Source of the DNA: Ruania alba
GTDB taxonomy: Bacteria > Actinomycetota > Actinomycetes > Actinomycetales > Beutenbergiaceae
Direction: 5' to 3'
Length of the DNA stretch: 64,000 nucleotides
Assembly (NCBI RefSeq): GCF_900105765.1
Contig: NZ_FNTX01000001.1
Coordinates: forward strand, 62,001-126,000
This document shows, in pieces, positions 58,878 through 64,000 of the stretch (position 1 is the stretch's first letter; each line of letters opens with the position of its first letter). The notes beneath the pieces were generated by a model, which searched no databases, had not been told where the DNA came from, and saw nothing but the letters and a program-made list of their open reading frames with translations. A program made the position numbers and the translations under genes.

Positions 58878-59927
58878 CTATGCGGTGACCGCATCCCGGA
58901 TGTCGGCGGTGCTCGAACCGCGCACCACGAGCTCCGGGGCGAACTCCACCTGGCGGGCGGCGTCCGTTCCCGACTCGGTGAGCAGCATGTCTGCGGCTGT
59001 CCAGCCGAGAGTGTGCATCGGCTGGCGCACCGAGGTCAGCGGGGTGGTCAGCATCGAGGCGAACACGACGTCGTCGTAGCCCACCACGGCCATGTCCTCC
59101 GGGATCGAGACGTCGTTGTCGCGCAGCGCGCGCAAGGCGCCCAACGCGGTGAAGTCGTTCGCGCAGAACATGGCGGTCGGGCGGGGCCCGCTCTCGGCGA
59201 GCAGACGGCGAACGGCAGCGTCCGCCGCATCCGCGTTCAACGAGTCCAGGCTCACCTCGGTGAGCACCTCAGCGGGGTCCAGGCCGTGCTCGGCCAGGGT
59301 GGTGACCACGCCGTCTCGACGGTCCACGCACTGGCGCAGCGTCAGTGGGCCGTTCACGAAGACGAACCGGGTATGGCCGAGGCCGAGCAGGTGCTCGATC
59401 GCCAATGCCGCACCGCCGACGTCGTCCACTGCCACCGAGCCGACCTCCGGAACGGGGGAGGTGTGATCGAGCAGCACCACCTCGATGCCGCGCTCGCGCA
59501 GCGCGAGCAGACCATCCAGGCTCCCGTGCGAGGGGGTGGCGATCACACCACGGACCCCGTGCTCCTCGAACAGCCGCAGGAACCGGGCCTCGCGGTCGGG
59601 GTTCTCGTCGGAGCTGCACAGCATCAGCGTGTGGTCGTCCTGGGCAAGGCGGTCCTCGATCCCGCGGGCCATCTCGGTGAAGAACGGGTTGGCGATGTCG
59701 AGCACGACGGCGCCGACCGTGCTGATCTCACCGCTACGCAGCTGGCGTGCCGACGCGTTGCGCACGAACCGCAGTTCGGCGATGGCCTGCTCCACCTTGG
59801 CCCGGGTAGCGGGAGAGACGGAGTCGGGCCGGTTGAGGACGTTGGACACCGTACCGACCGAGACGCCTGCCTCCTTCGCCACATCGGTGACGCTCGGGCG
59901 CCTCGGGCCACCGTTTCGCCTGGGCAT
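58878..59927 (-). CDS. LacI-family transcriptional regulator
   Basis: A 349-residue regulator with helix-turn-helix VTDVAKEAGVSVGTVSNVLN, hinge FVRNASARQLRSGEISTVGAVV and a sensor domain (FCANDFTALGALRALRD; MAVVGYDDVVFASMLTTPLTSV). The ATG with GAGGAG upstream is used. No sugar gene adjoins it; its targets may be elsewhere. A LacI-like palindrome lies 38 bp upstream, so it is probably autoregulated. Confidence 0.92.
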   Translation of the reverse strand: MPRRNGGPRRPSVTDVAKEAGVSVGTVSNVLNRPDSVSPATRAKVEQAIAELRFVRNASARQLRSGEISTVGAVVLDIANPFFTEMARGIEDRLAQDDHTLMLCSSDENPDREARFLRLFEEHGVRGVIATPSHGSLDGLLALRERGIEVVLLDHTSPVPEVGSVAVDDVGGAALAIEHLLGLGHTRFVFVNGPLTLRQCVDRRDGVVTTLAEHGLDPAEVLTEVSLDSLNADAADAAVRRLLAESGPRPTAMFCANDFTALGALRALRDNDVSIPEDMAVVGYDDVVFASMLTTPLTSVRQPMHTLGWTAADMLLTESGTDAARQVEFAPELVVRGSSTADIRDAVTA

Positions 59928-59964
59928 GCTGCTCCTCGTCTGTATCGGATCTGCACCGATCCGG

Positions 59965-59984
59965 TGAGTGTATCGTTTCACTCA
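59965..59984. promoter_or_regulatory. LacI-type operator upstream of the lacI gene
   Basis: TGAGTG (59965-59970) and CACTCA (59979-59984) flank TATCGTTT; the core TGTATCGTTTCA has the CG centre and GTTTCA half-site common in LacI operators. It lies between the divergent regulator and phosphopantetheinyl transferase genes and could control both. Confidence 0.55.
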
Positions 59985-60008
59985 TCCGTGGGTGGTGCCT
60001 CTGCGAGA

Positions 60009-60533
60009 ATGACGGCGATGGCCGCCCCCGTGCCGACCGGCATCCCTGTCAGCGTGCACTGGCACCGCGCCGACCTCGGCACCGATGAGGCCCTGCGCCG
60101 CCACCTTGCCGATGACCTGACGCCCATGCCGGGAGCGGATCTGCGGATCGGCCACCTCTGCCCGCGTTGTGGCGGCTCGGACCACGGCCGCCCCTGGGCG
60201 CGCGCCGGCGAGCGCACCATCGCCGTCTCCGCCGCGCGTGCCGGGGGATACCTGGTGACCGCCGCTGGTCTCCCGCCCGTTGCCCGGATCGGGGTCGATA
60301 TCGAACGTGCCGAAGCGGGCCCCATCGACCGTGCGCTCGTCCTGCACCGGGAGGAGTCAGGTCAGGACGTCCTGCAGGTCTGGGTGGCGAAGGAGGCGAT
60401 CCTGAAGATGCTCGGTGTGGGGCTGAGCGTGCCGATGCCTTCGATCCGGGTGGCCGACTTCTCGGTGCAGGACCTGCCCGCACCCGCGGGCCTCCTCGCG
60501 CGGGTGTGCGTGAGCGAGGCACGCCCCGGCTGA
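60009..60533 (+). CDS. 4'-phosphopantetheinyl transferase superfamily protein
   Basis: A 174-residue enzyme that attaches 4'-phosphopantetheine to carrier-protein domains. The two signature motifs are RIGVDIERAEAG (magnesium-binding Asp/Glu, about residues 94-103) and WVAKEAILKMLGVGL (about 125-139). A Cys-containing segment HLCPRCGGSDHGRPWA matches the GxxHGRP region that contacts coenzyme A. It is shorter than Sfp (about 225) and lacks most of the C-terminal extension. A start three codons later (MAAPVP) is possible. It converges on an operon encoding an M1 peptidase and a Pls/PosA-type synthetase, whose carrier domain is its likely substrate. Confidence 0.88.
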   Translation: MTAMAAPVPTGIPVSVHWHRADLGTDEALRRHLADDLTPMPGADLRIGHLCPRCGGSDHGRPWARAGERTIAVSAARAGGYLVTAAGLPPVARIGVDIERAEAGPIDRALVLHREESGQDVLQVWVAKEAILKMLGVGLSVPMPSIRVADFSVQDLPAPAGLLARVCVSEARPG

Positions 60534-60558
60534 GGGGGGGGCGGGTGAGCGAGGCGGG

Positions 60559-61887
60559 TCAGCGCCACGCAGGCAGTGCGGCCTGGTGGAGCCAGGCGTC
60601 GAAGAATCCGTGCAGCGGCTCTCCGCCGATCTCCTCGGCCAACGCGACGAAATCCTCGGTGCAGACCACGCCTCCGCGGTGCTGCGCGACCCATCGCTGC
60701 AGCAGCCGCCCGAAGTCCTGGGCGCCGATCAGATCCCGCAGGGCCGCCAGCGTCAGCGCCCCGCGCTTGTAGACGCGATCATCGAACATGTCCGCCGCAC
60801 CCGGATCGCTGAGCCGCAGGTCCTGGGGCAGGGTGCTCAGCCGCTCGTGCTGGTGGGCCGCATGCTCGGCAATCCTCGGCCCACCGGAGTACTCCGACCA
60901 CACCCACTCGCTGAAGCAGGCGAATCCTTCGTGCAGCCAGATGTCCTGCCATGAGCTCGCCGTCACGGCATTGCCGAACCACTGGTGGGAGAGCTCGTGC
61001 GCGATCAGCCGTACGGCGCCCCAGTCGGCCGAGCAGTGGTTGCGTCCGAAGGTCGACAGGGCTTGCGACTCGAGCGGGATCTCCAACGCATCGTCGGTGA
61101 TCACGCAGGTGTAGGAGTCGAACGGGTAGGGCCCGAACGCGTCCTCGAAGCACGTCAGCATCTCGCGTTGCCGACCGAAGGATGCCGCGAACGCGTCCGC
61201 GGGCAGTCCCTCCGGCCGGAGGATCCGCATCGGTACGCCGGGCCCGTCCAGCGACTGCTCCCGGTACTTCCCGATCTGCACCGACGCCAGGTACGGCGCC
61301 ATCGGGTGGCGCTGCTGGAACGTCCATGTCCGCCGTGAGCCACGGCGTTCCACCGCGCATGTCTGGCCGCTGAAGGCCGCGGTGTAGTCGGCGGGCACGG
61401 TGAGGTGTACGTCGTAGCGGGCCTTGTCCCGCGCCTGGTCGTTGCACGGGAACCACGACGGCGACCCGTGCGGTTGCGAGGCCACGATCACCCCGTCGGT
61501 GAGCTCCTCCCAGCCTGCCTCGCCCAGGGTGGTCGAGCGCACCGGCCTGGGGTTGCCGCCGTACTCGATGCGGATCGTGAGCTCCGATCTGGCGGGCGCG
61601 GGCTGCTTCAGGGCGACGGTGAGCCGCTTCGCCTTGCGGGTGTACTTGCCGAGCGTGGCACCCGTCACGGACACCTTCGCCACGCGCAGCTCGTGCAGGT
61701 CGAAGCGCAGTGCGGAGGTCTCGGTGAGGGTGTGCAGCCGTACCACGGCCACGCCGCCGAGCAGGTTGCTGCGGGGTTGGTAGGTCAGGTCCAGCTGGTA
61801 GTGGTCGACGGCGTAGCTCGGGTCGCCGTGTCCAGGCATGTAGGTATCGGTCGTCTCGGGCATCACCGGGGTGTGCGGTCGGGTCAC
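60559..61887 (-). CDS. Short M1-family metallopeptidase
   Basis: A 442-residue zinc peptidase of the gluzincin M1 type, with an N-terminal beta domain and catalytic domain. It has HELSH (297-301) in LIAHELSHQWFGNAV, third zinc ligand Glu320 in WLHEGFACFSEWVW, and DDRVYKRGALTLAALRDLIG. The exopeptidase motif GAMEN is replaced by the stretch IPLESQALS. The C-terminal helical domain of full-length (850-residue) aminopeptidases is absent. GTG at 61887 is chosen because GGAGGAGGGAG lies just before it and it overlaps the TGA of the upstream gene. No signal peptide. It is translationally coupled to the Pls/PosA-type gene and may act on its peptide product. Confidence 0.9.
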   Translation of the reverse strand: MTRPHTPVMPETTDTYMPGHGDPSYAVDHYQLDLTYQPRSNLLGGVAVVRLHTLTETSALRFDLHELRVAKVSVTGATLGKYTRKAKRLTVALKQPAPARSELTIRIEYGGNPRPVRSTTLGEAGWEELTDGVIVASQPHGSPSWFPCNDQARDKARYDVHLTVPADYTAAFSGQTCAVERRGSRRTWTFQQRHPMAPYLASVQIGKYREQSLDGPGVPMRILRPEGLPADAFAASFGRQREMLTCFEDAFGPYPFDSYTCVITDDALEIPLESQALSTFGRNHCSADWGAVRLIAHELSHQWFGNAVTASSWQDIWLHEGFACFSEWVWSEYSGGPRIAEHAAHQHERLSTLPQDLRLSDPGAADMFDDRVYKRGALTLAALRDLIGAQDFGRLLQRWVAQHRGGVVCTEDFVALAEEIGGEPLHGFFDAWLHQAALPAWR

Positions 61888-64000
61888 GCTCCCTCCTCCC
61901 AGGGGCCGATCGGGTTGCCGAGCCACCGGGTGCGGCTCGGTACGGATTCACCGCGCATCACCAGCGATGCGGGTCCCACTGTCGCATCACGGTCGAGATG
62001 CGCAGCAGGCAGGATCACACTGTTCGGTCCGAGAGTGGCTCCGGCACCGATGACCACGCGGTCCATGGCGAGCACCCGGTCGTGGAACAGATGGGTCTGC
62101 ACCACGCATCCGGCGTTGATGCACGATCCTGCGCCCAACTCGACCAGATCCGGTTCGGGAAGCCAGTACGTATCGCACCAGACGCCGTCGCCGATCTTCG
62201 CCCCCATGGCGCGGAACCACACGTTCAGGGCGACGGTGCCCTGTGCCAGGGAGCAGAACCATCGTGCGGCGAGAACTTCGGTGAAGGTGTCGGCCAGCTC
62301 GCCGCGCCACACCGCCCCGCTCCACAGCGGGTGCTCGCTGACGCGGTGCGCACCCACCAGGAGCCACTTCGCCGCCACCGTGACCCCCGCGGCGATCAGG
62401 CCGGCGAGCAGCAGGACCAGCGGGCCGAGCAGCACCGCGGCGATGAGGCCCGTCCAGGACCAGGGGTTATCGGCCGAACCTCCGAGGAGTGCCAGCAGCG
62501 TGGTGCCTACGACGAGCATGAGGCACACGGAGCCGAACAGGGGGATCACCCGGCAGGTCTCGACGACTCCACGCAGCACCCGCAGGCGGGTGCTCGGTTC
62601 GTAAGTGCGCGTCTCGTCGGCCGGCCCGCCCTCGCGGCGCAGCTGGGTGGGCGGACTGCCGATCCATGACGTCCCCGCTCGGGCGGTGCCGCGCTTGGGT
62701 GCTGCGGAGAGGACGGCCACGAGTGAGGCCTTCGGGATCTTCCGTCCCGGTGCGGCCATCCCGGAGTTGCCGAGGAAGGCGCGTTTGCCGATCTTCACGC
62801 GTTCGGCTCGCAGCCACCCACCGGTGAGCTCGTAGCCGCCGACGAGCGTGTCGTCCGCGAGGAAGGACTGGTCGCCGATCTGTGTCAGCTTCGGGATCAG
62901 CACCACCGTGGATGCCTCGACGCCGCGGCCCACGCGGGCGCCGAGGGCTCGCAGCCACCACGGCGTGAGTGCCCCGGCATACAGGGGAAAGAGCCAATCG
63001 CGGGCTTCGTCCATGAGCCGTACGGTGGCCCACACGGCCAGCCCCCGCCCGGAGCGTACGGGCACCGGGCCGCTGCGGATAGCCGGGGCGAGGATCCGCA
63101 CGACGGCGATGACCAGGATCATCAAGGTCGCATATCCGACCAGCGCGGCCAGCGGCAGCCACGGCCATACCGTCGCCCACGCGTGGCTCAGGTCCGTCGC
63201 AGTGCGCAGCGCCGGCCACAGCACCAGCGCACCGACCGCCGCGGCGCACCAGGGCAGGGCGGCCAGGAACGTGCCGATGACGGCGTAGCCCGTCACCCAG
63301 GCGCGGCCACCGGCGGGGGCTCGCTTGGACCAGGGGCCGCGGGCGGAGCCGGTGACCTCAGCGGGAGATCCGGAGACCAACCGTTCGGCCCGCACCCTGC
63401 CGGCGACGAACGATCCCGCGGCCACTTCGGCGCCCCGGCCCACCGTGGCCCCTGGGCCGAGCGTGCTCCGGGCACCGATCCGCGCCCGGGCGGCGATCGA
63501 GATCCGGCCCAGATGCACCCGATCACCGTCGATCCAGGCACCGGTCAGATCCACCTCGGGTTCCACGCAGGCACGCTTGCCGATCCGGAGGAAGCCGGTG
63601 ACCGGTGGCAGGGAGTGCAGATCCACGTTCGCGCCGATCTTGGCGCCGAGCAGGCGTGCGTACCAGGTGATCGATGCGGCGCCGGCGAGCCCCGTCGCGG
63701 CCAGTTCGTCTTGGATCCGGCCGGCCAGCCAGTACCGCAGATGAACCTTCCCGCCGCGGGGGTAGGTGCCCGGCTGGATGCCGCGCAGCACCGCGCGGAT
63801 CAGTCCGGCTGCGACGAGCATCCGGCCCTGCGGGAGGAGGAACAGTGCAGTGGTGAGGGCCACCAGCCAGATCGGGGGCGCCGGCCACCAGCTGAGTACC
63901 GGATGCAGCAGCACGCCGGCGAGCAGGAGCCAGGCGATCCATCGCAGTGTCGCCAGTGCGCGCAGCGGGTAGAACGCGAGGATCTGCCCCACCTTCGTCC
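61884..64000 (-). CDS. Pls/PosA-type non-ribosomal peptide synthetase, C-terminal part (5' truncated)
   Basis: The frame is open to the right window edge; 704 residues are visible. They match the terminal region of Pls/PosA-family synthetases. Six membrane helices occur (about 14-32, 41-57, 232-256, 274-300, 480-505, 515-545). They separate three soluble segments with left-handed beta-helix character (IGARSTLGPGATVGRGAEVA; IGDQSFLADDTLVGGYEL; IGAGATLGPNSVILPAAHL). The segment opens TKVGQILAFYPLRALATLRW, as expected just after a carrier domain. Epsilon-poly-lysine synthetase has this architecture: adenylation, carrier, then six helices and three tandem domains that polymerise one amino acid. 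The adenylation domain, which sets the substrate, lies outside the window. Confidence 0.88.
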   Translation of the reverse strand, partial: TKVGQILAFYPLRALATLRWIAWLLLAGVLLHPVLSWWPAPPIWLVALTTALFLLPQGRMLVAAGLIRAVLRGIQPGTYPRGGKVHLRYWLAGRIQDELAATGLAGAASITWYARLLGAKIGANVDLHSLPPVTGFLRIGKRACVEPEVDLTGAWIDGDRVHLGRISIAARARIGARSTLGPGATVGRGAEVAAGSFVAGRVRAERLVSGSPAEVTGSARGPWSKRAPAGGRAWVTGYAVIGTFLAALPWCAAAVGALVLWPALRTATDLSHAWATVWPWLPLAALVGYATLMILVIAVVRILAPAIRSGPVPVRSGRGLAVWATVRLMDEARDWLFPLYAGALTPWWLRALGARVGRGVEASTVVLIPKLTQIGDQSFLADDTLVGGYELTGGWLRAERVKIGKRAFLGNSGMAAPGRKIPKASLVAVLSAAPKRGTARAGTSWIGSPPTQLRREGGPADETRTYEPSTRLRVLRGVVETCRVIPLFGSVCLMLVVGTTLLALLGGSADNPWSWTGLIAAVLLGPLVLLLAGLIAAGVTVAAKWLLVGAHRVSEHPLWSGAVWRGELADTFTEVLAARWFCSLAQGTVALNVWFRAMGAKIGDGVWCDTYWLPEPDLVELGAGSCINAGCVVQTHLFHDRVLAMDRVVIGAGATLGPNSVILPAAHLDRDATVGPASLVMRGESVPSRTRWLGNPIGPWEEGA

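Follow-up and report, generated by a model that had tools for sequence, protein, structure and literature searches.

Genes at the locus

The window, which denotes the whole 64,000-nucleotide stretch of the Ruania alba genome analyzed here, ends in three closely spaced genes, all of which were confirmed at the positions given in a first-pass annotation of the same DNA. A compact Sfp-type 4'-phosphopantetheinyl transferase (PPTase) of 174 aa lies on the plus strand (60009..60533, PF01648), with a possible ATG start at 60009 and its stop at 60533. After 25 bp (60534-60558) it meets the convergent gene of a two-domain M1 zinc peptidase of 442 aa, PldII-like by position (60559..61887, minus strand, Pfam M1 and M1_N). 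The peptidase gene has a possible GTG start at 61887 and ends at 60559, and its start shares the four bases GTGA (61884..61887, minus strand, read from the sequence) with the TGA stop (61886-61884) of the third gene. Of this gene, which is predicted to encode an epsilon-poly-L-lysine synthetase (Pls), the window holds the portion for the C-terminus (61884..64000, minus strand, TIGR02353), and the rest lies beyond the window edge. The annotation had described both the short M1 peptidase with its start in the synthetase stop and a transferase converging on the pair at 25 bp, and both descriptions were borne out.

The synthetase terminus matches the TIGR02353 model, named 'Pls/PosA family', with 644 bits over positions 3-695 of 695 (cut-off 423). 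Kyte-Doolittle hydropathy of the protein gives 11 raw segments, one of which falls inside the adenylation domain; the remaining 10, at residues 684-1222, were merged by reading into six stretches that form three pairs. The terminus has three transferase-like domains in tandem together with the six membrane stretches, in agreement with the six-helix, three-tandem-domain organization first annotated. Extension of the contig to the 5' part of the gene revealed one adenylation domain (PF00501, G000:C1:126719-127771) and one carrier domain (PF00550, C1:126068-126259, with its serine in LGGGSL) ahead of the terminus. The whole open frame (L006:6885-11015, minus strand, up to 1376 aa) therefore holds a single adenylation-carrier (A-T) module, and the two domains and the TIGR02353 region fill it, in keeping with a Pls free of condensation and thioesterase domains. 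The flanking contig was examined for an upstream part devoid of these domains or for a multi-module synthetase, either of which would contradict a Pls-type enzyme, and neither was found.

Comparisons with named relatives use the best 80 of 587 confirmed loci, that is, those nearest to the window. Among these best 80 of 587, the nearest relative by the terminal domain is Ornithinimicrobium cavernae at 63%, tied with two Nocardioides entries. Four genomes of the order (G012, G154, G327, and G331) carry two Pls/PosA-type loci apiece above the family cut-off.

The M1 protein matches Pfam Peptidase_M1 with 100 bits and M1_N with 49 bits, has an intact HELSHQW...E signature (HExxH...E), and finds its best PDB match in the short zinc metalloprotease 6A8Z (173 bits). 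The M1 zinc signature accompanies pls in 79 of the 80 named relatives (best 80 of 587) and lies directly 3' of pls except at L148, where it is shifted by about 2 kb. L142 (Arthrobacter sp. Y81) is the sole named relative of the 80 without the signature near pls.

The transferase scores 32 bits against PF01648 (cut-off 25), and the best PDB match of its family profile is Sfp (1QR0/4MRT). Its AlphaFold model has a mean pLDDT of 91.3, and the top PDB matches by Foldseek are AASDHPPT, Sfp, and PptT (2CG5, 4MRT, and PptT); the TM-scores are modest (0.40-0.57 by query length), and AcpS appears only at E 0.29 or worse. The PF01648 match and the Sfp-type fold support the original assignment. Both the GxD and the WxxKEAxxK motifs are intact in the window protein, the motif lysine included. 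An invariant CxxC...HG near the N-terminus of the aligned PPTases from such loci (window 60159-60194) resembles a small metal-binding knuckle.

Predicted substrate and peptidase role

The adenylation specificity, which could not be read within the window, becomes accessible with the extended gene. The best PDB match of the adenylation domain is 7WEW, the corresponding domain of the Streptomyces albulus epsilon-poly-L-lysine synthetase (610 bits), and the runner-up entry is linear gramicidin synthetase (372 bits over two stretches). The binding pocket reads DAESIGTVV followed by the A10 lysine, and by eye the letters in the 7WEW row are identical. Pocket positions were set by spacing from the conserved Asp235 (GrsA numbering). 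The nine positions before the lysine are identical in 78 of the 78 readable sequences among the 80 named relatives (best 80 of 587); two entries (L100 and L144) are too short. The Asp, position 2, and Glu anchors agree with those in the sections of PMC10522769 in which alanine at position 2 marks lysine enzymes, methionine marks ornithine enzymes, and phenylalanine marks enzymes for diaminopropionate or diaminobutyrate.

The predicted substrate is L-lysine, because the pocket residues match those of lysine-specific Pls, with alanine at position 2. That the synthetase makes another cationic homopolymer, from ornithine, diaminobutyrate, diaminopropionate, or beta-lysine, is very improbable. Such a product would accord with the naming of TIGR02353 for both Pls and PosA, and with the observation, in the same sections of PMC10522769, that homopolymer synthetases with different substrates have the same terminus. 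The pocket is nevertheless that of lysine-specific Pls, with neither methionine nor phenylalanine at position 2, and the beta-lysine code given there, DGESISVVNK, is unlike it.

The pairing of this predicted lysine enzyme with a peptidase represents a known operon type, because the 4-bp overlap is that of S. albulus pls and pldII, which form one operon (PMC4361855, in part). The GTGA overlap likely reflects translational coupling. According to portions of PMC9223678, S. albulus PldII is translationally coupled to pls and is the principal enzyme that degrades epsilon-PL; it serves self-protection and influences chain length, and repression of pldII lowered epsilon-PL tolerance. The chain-length effect is disputed, as a review (PMC8506220, in part) relates that inactivation of Pld and PldII in Streptomyces left production and polymerization degree unaltered. 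The first-pass annotation had the peptidase either resist or trim the polymer. For its putative role here, 'resist' is better backed than 'trim', because inactivation of both enzymes changed neither production nor chain length in the account of that review.

Association of the transferase with pls

The window genome (4.83 Mb, two contigs) contains two PPTases by PF01648, namely one whose length of 120 aa is AcpS-like and the one described above. The PF00550 search at E 0.001 likewise returned two carrier domains, the one in Pls and an acyl carrier protein (ACP) flanked, by eye, by FabH- and FabF-like frames. No further carrier outside fatty acid synthesis was found in this genome by PF00550 at E 0.001, and no further Sfp-type enzyme by PF01648. 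Because each search gave two matches, the cell seems to have a single such carrier and a single Sfp-type enzyme, encoded next to each other. Going by sequence alone, AcpS may also serve the Pls carrier.

A competing explanation is that Pls and the peptidase form the functional pair and that the transferase is a mere neighbour, serving other carriers or unneeded. The position of the transferase on the opposite strand, outside the operon, is what this explanation would expect. It is unlikely, in part because no other non-FAS carrier was found by PF00550 in the window genome that a neighbouring enzyme could serve.

A second line of evidence comes from eight genomes of the same genus, four of which contain pls (G000, G002, G004, and G005). 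A close homologue of the M1 peptidase (78-100% identity) is confined to these four, the best matches in the other four reaching 26-28%, and a second PPTase beside M1 is likewise present in the same four only. The profile for this type of PPTase had no match in any of the four pls-lacking genomes of the genus. By tblastn of flanking genes, all eight genomes have rhaI and one shared lacI-type gene at this site. In the four carriers, exactly the PPTase, M1, and pls genes lie between them. The empty site of G006 has 147 bp between the matched stretches, and those of G001, G003, and G007 have about 0.95 to 1.2 kb, with a DeoR-like frame, by eye, in G007. G001 and G007 have only an AcpS-like PPTase match. 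G003 has none, but this absence is weak evidence because the genome is 92% complete in 360 contigs and even AcpS was missed.

The three genes are thus co-inherited in this genus as one block at a site otherwise free of all three, which argues against a mere neighbour. The four-versus-four pattern probably reflects one or two events in which the three genes moved together; so few events are suggested by the rhaI identities, which are 96, 96, and 90 in carriers and 89, 83, 83, and 83 in the others. In addition to its empty site, G006 harbors, elsewhere (L036 / L019, G006:C1:2822076-2823924), a stand-alone AMP-binding match with a PPTase match ~77 bp on, a different adenylation/activation pair.

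Across the order, 396 genomes were surveyed, and a genome was scored as carrying pls when TIGR02353 matched above its curated cut-off (127 genomes, and one of 14 controls). At E 0.001 the same model matched 365 of the 396 genomes and 13 of the 14 controls, probably through hexapeptide repeats, and that threshold was not used for counts. The PPTase profile matched 193 of the 396 genomes: 123 of the 127 with pls, leaving four exceptions, and 70 of the 269 without it (Fisher P about 1e-45, uncorrected for descent). The relatives of the transferase in those 70 genomes are consistent with a neighbour that serves other carriers. Against this, the association holds within genera, with a Mantel-Haenszel odds ratio of 45 and P of about 7e-17 for 17 genera (196 of the 396 genomes) hand-picked for mixed states; 16 genera (194 genomes) gave a ratio of 44. 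The arrangement recurs as well. A PPTase match lies no more than 2.5 kb away at no fewer than 60 of 131 pls loci; it is downstream and convergent at 58 and on the same strand at two, and at least seven more loci have one within 15 kb. The 58 is a lower bound, with the PPTase coordinates of 30 pls-carrying genomes left out. The co-occurrence and site data speak against chance as the reason why the three genes are neighbours, which is therefore rejected, and they uphold the grouping in the first-pass annotation.

The named relatives were divided into 37 Mycobacteriales-type and 43 other loci from record titles, and the PPTase profile applied to them was seeded from 13 motif matches, mostly in the same loci. 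Among these best 80 of 587, a PPTase lies right after M1 and convergent with it in 29 of the 43 other loci and in none of the 37 Mycobacteriales-type loci. Mycobacteriales have PptT, an essential Sfp-type enzyme of general use, which is the likely reason for the missing adjacent gene. All 37 loci without a nearby transferase would also suit a mere neighbour. The remaining 14 of the 43 lack a PPTase directly beside the peptidase; one (L161) has it 2.5 kb away, and in three of the 14 the sequence stops no more than about 0.5 kb from the peptidase. Fourteen named loci that lack the neighbouring gene, with L148 included and L161 excluded, were searched for CxxC..HG or a relaxed PPTase signature, and none gave a convincing candidate. 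Over the 29 triads, pairwise distances of Pls, M1, and PPTase correlate (r 0.80, 0.72, and 0.72; none of 5000 permutations as high), as expected under co-inheritance and equally under plain vertical descent.

The lysine of WxxKE is kept in 15 of the 29 adjoining PPTases and absent in 14. Some of these enzymes may be impaired because they lack the motif lysine, and their activity is uncertain from sequence; this too is a point on the side of a mere neighbour. The copies without the lysine (L089, L094, L095, L096, L098, L118, L119, L120, L134, L138, L143, L146, L147, and L160) are mainly from Microbacterium and Nocardioides, with variants such as WTRIEA, WVRVEA, and WVRTEA in which the acidic residue and a later lysine are kept.

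A candidate three-gene cassette and its known relatives

The reading that we favor, with good confidence, is that the three genes form a self-contained epsilon-poly-L-lysine cassette of synthetase, activator, and degrading peptidase. The first-pass annotation had likewise proposed a self-contained system for an isopeptide-linked cationic polymer; the grouping in that proposal is supported, and the activities, the export, and the pairing of transferase and carrier are what we infer. Pls would adenylate L-lysine and transfer it to the carrier domain of the same protein, and the membrane-embedded three-domain terminus would join the lysines through the epsilon-amino group and export the polymer. 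A carrier without the 4'-phosphopantetheine arm is dead. The Sfp-type transferase would add this arm to the Pls carrier and is probably the sole enzyme in the cell suited to it. The translationally coupled M1 peptidase would degrade the polymer, chiefly protecting the producer.

The core pair represents a previously described system, its biology already known, in a host new to it. The S. albulus pls-pldII locus has the same A-T synthetase with six membrane stretches and three domains, the same pocket, and a downstream zinc peptidase with a 4-bp overlap; unlike that locus as described, the one in R. alba is completed to a three-gene unit by a convergent Sfp-type PPTase. The pls and peptidase genes of Corynebacterium variabile, a non-filamentous actinobacterium, show the same operon and family (PMC8117764, in part). 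Sections of that paper report that C. variabile Pls makes epsilon-PL in S. coelicolor, that the native gene forms an operon with the peptidase, and that Pls occurs in numerous coryneform actinobacteria from cheese and skin. PosA of Acinetobacter baumannii, which makes delta-poly-L-ornithine, shares the terminal domain family and the single A-T module. It is a single-gene operon with methionine at pocket position 2 (PMC10522769, in part), in contrast with the alanine and the clustered partners found here.

The same sections of PMC8117764 describe no detectable epsilon-PL in C. variabile culture, nor with an induced copy in C. glutamicum, which raises the explanation that the window strain has a silent or decayed locus. 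We regard this as improbable, since none of the three frames is interrupted, their key residues are intact, and the three other carriers of the genus retain the unit, with protein identities of 78-96% for Pls and M1 and of about 60-93% for the PPTase.

Within our favored reading of a working cassette, what is modestly new is how often a seemingly dedicated PPTase occurs and how cleanly the cassette behaves. Phosphopantetheinyl terms do not appear in the main text of PMC8117764, PMC10522769, PMC9223678, and PMC8506220, and PMC4361855, PMC8949500, and PMC13291983 use such a term only in other contexts. The last of these, in part, describes PUFA-synthase clusters with a PPTase gene and a different cluster with a Pls/PosA-like enzyme. 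No PPTase partner of pls emerged from the titles and abstracts searched, which is weak evidence of novelty as subscription journals were mostly outside their scope.

A broader proposal, which we hold tentatively and at somewhat below an even chance, is that in many actinobacteria outside Mycobacteriales pls travels as a portable three-gene unit with a dedicated PPTase. Such a unit would confer the polymer in one step, without other nonribosomal peptide synthetase (NRPS) machinery, and the PPTase would be an on-switch overlooked in heterologous expression. Epsilon-poly-lysine is an antimicrobial polymer and a commercial food preservative. The cassette would account for its production by non-filamentous actinobacteria that have no other NRPS genes, and a cognate PPTase would be a simple addition when a heterologous Pls is silent.

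The PPTase gene is oriented divergently to the LacI-type gene (window 58878-60011), and only 27 bp separate the first start codons possible for the two. In relatives without pls this LacI-type gene adjoins rhaI, so that the three genes seem to stand between a possible rhamnose regulator and its operon.
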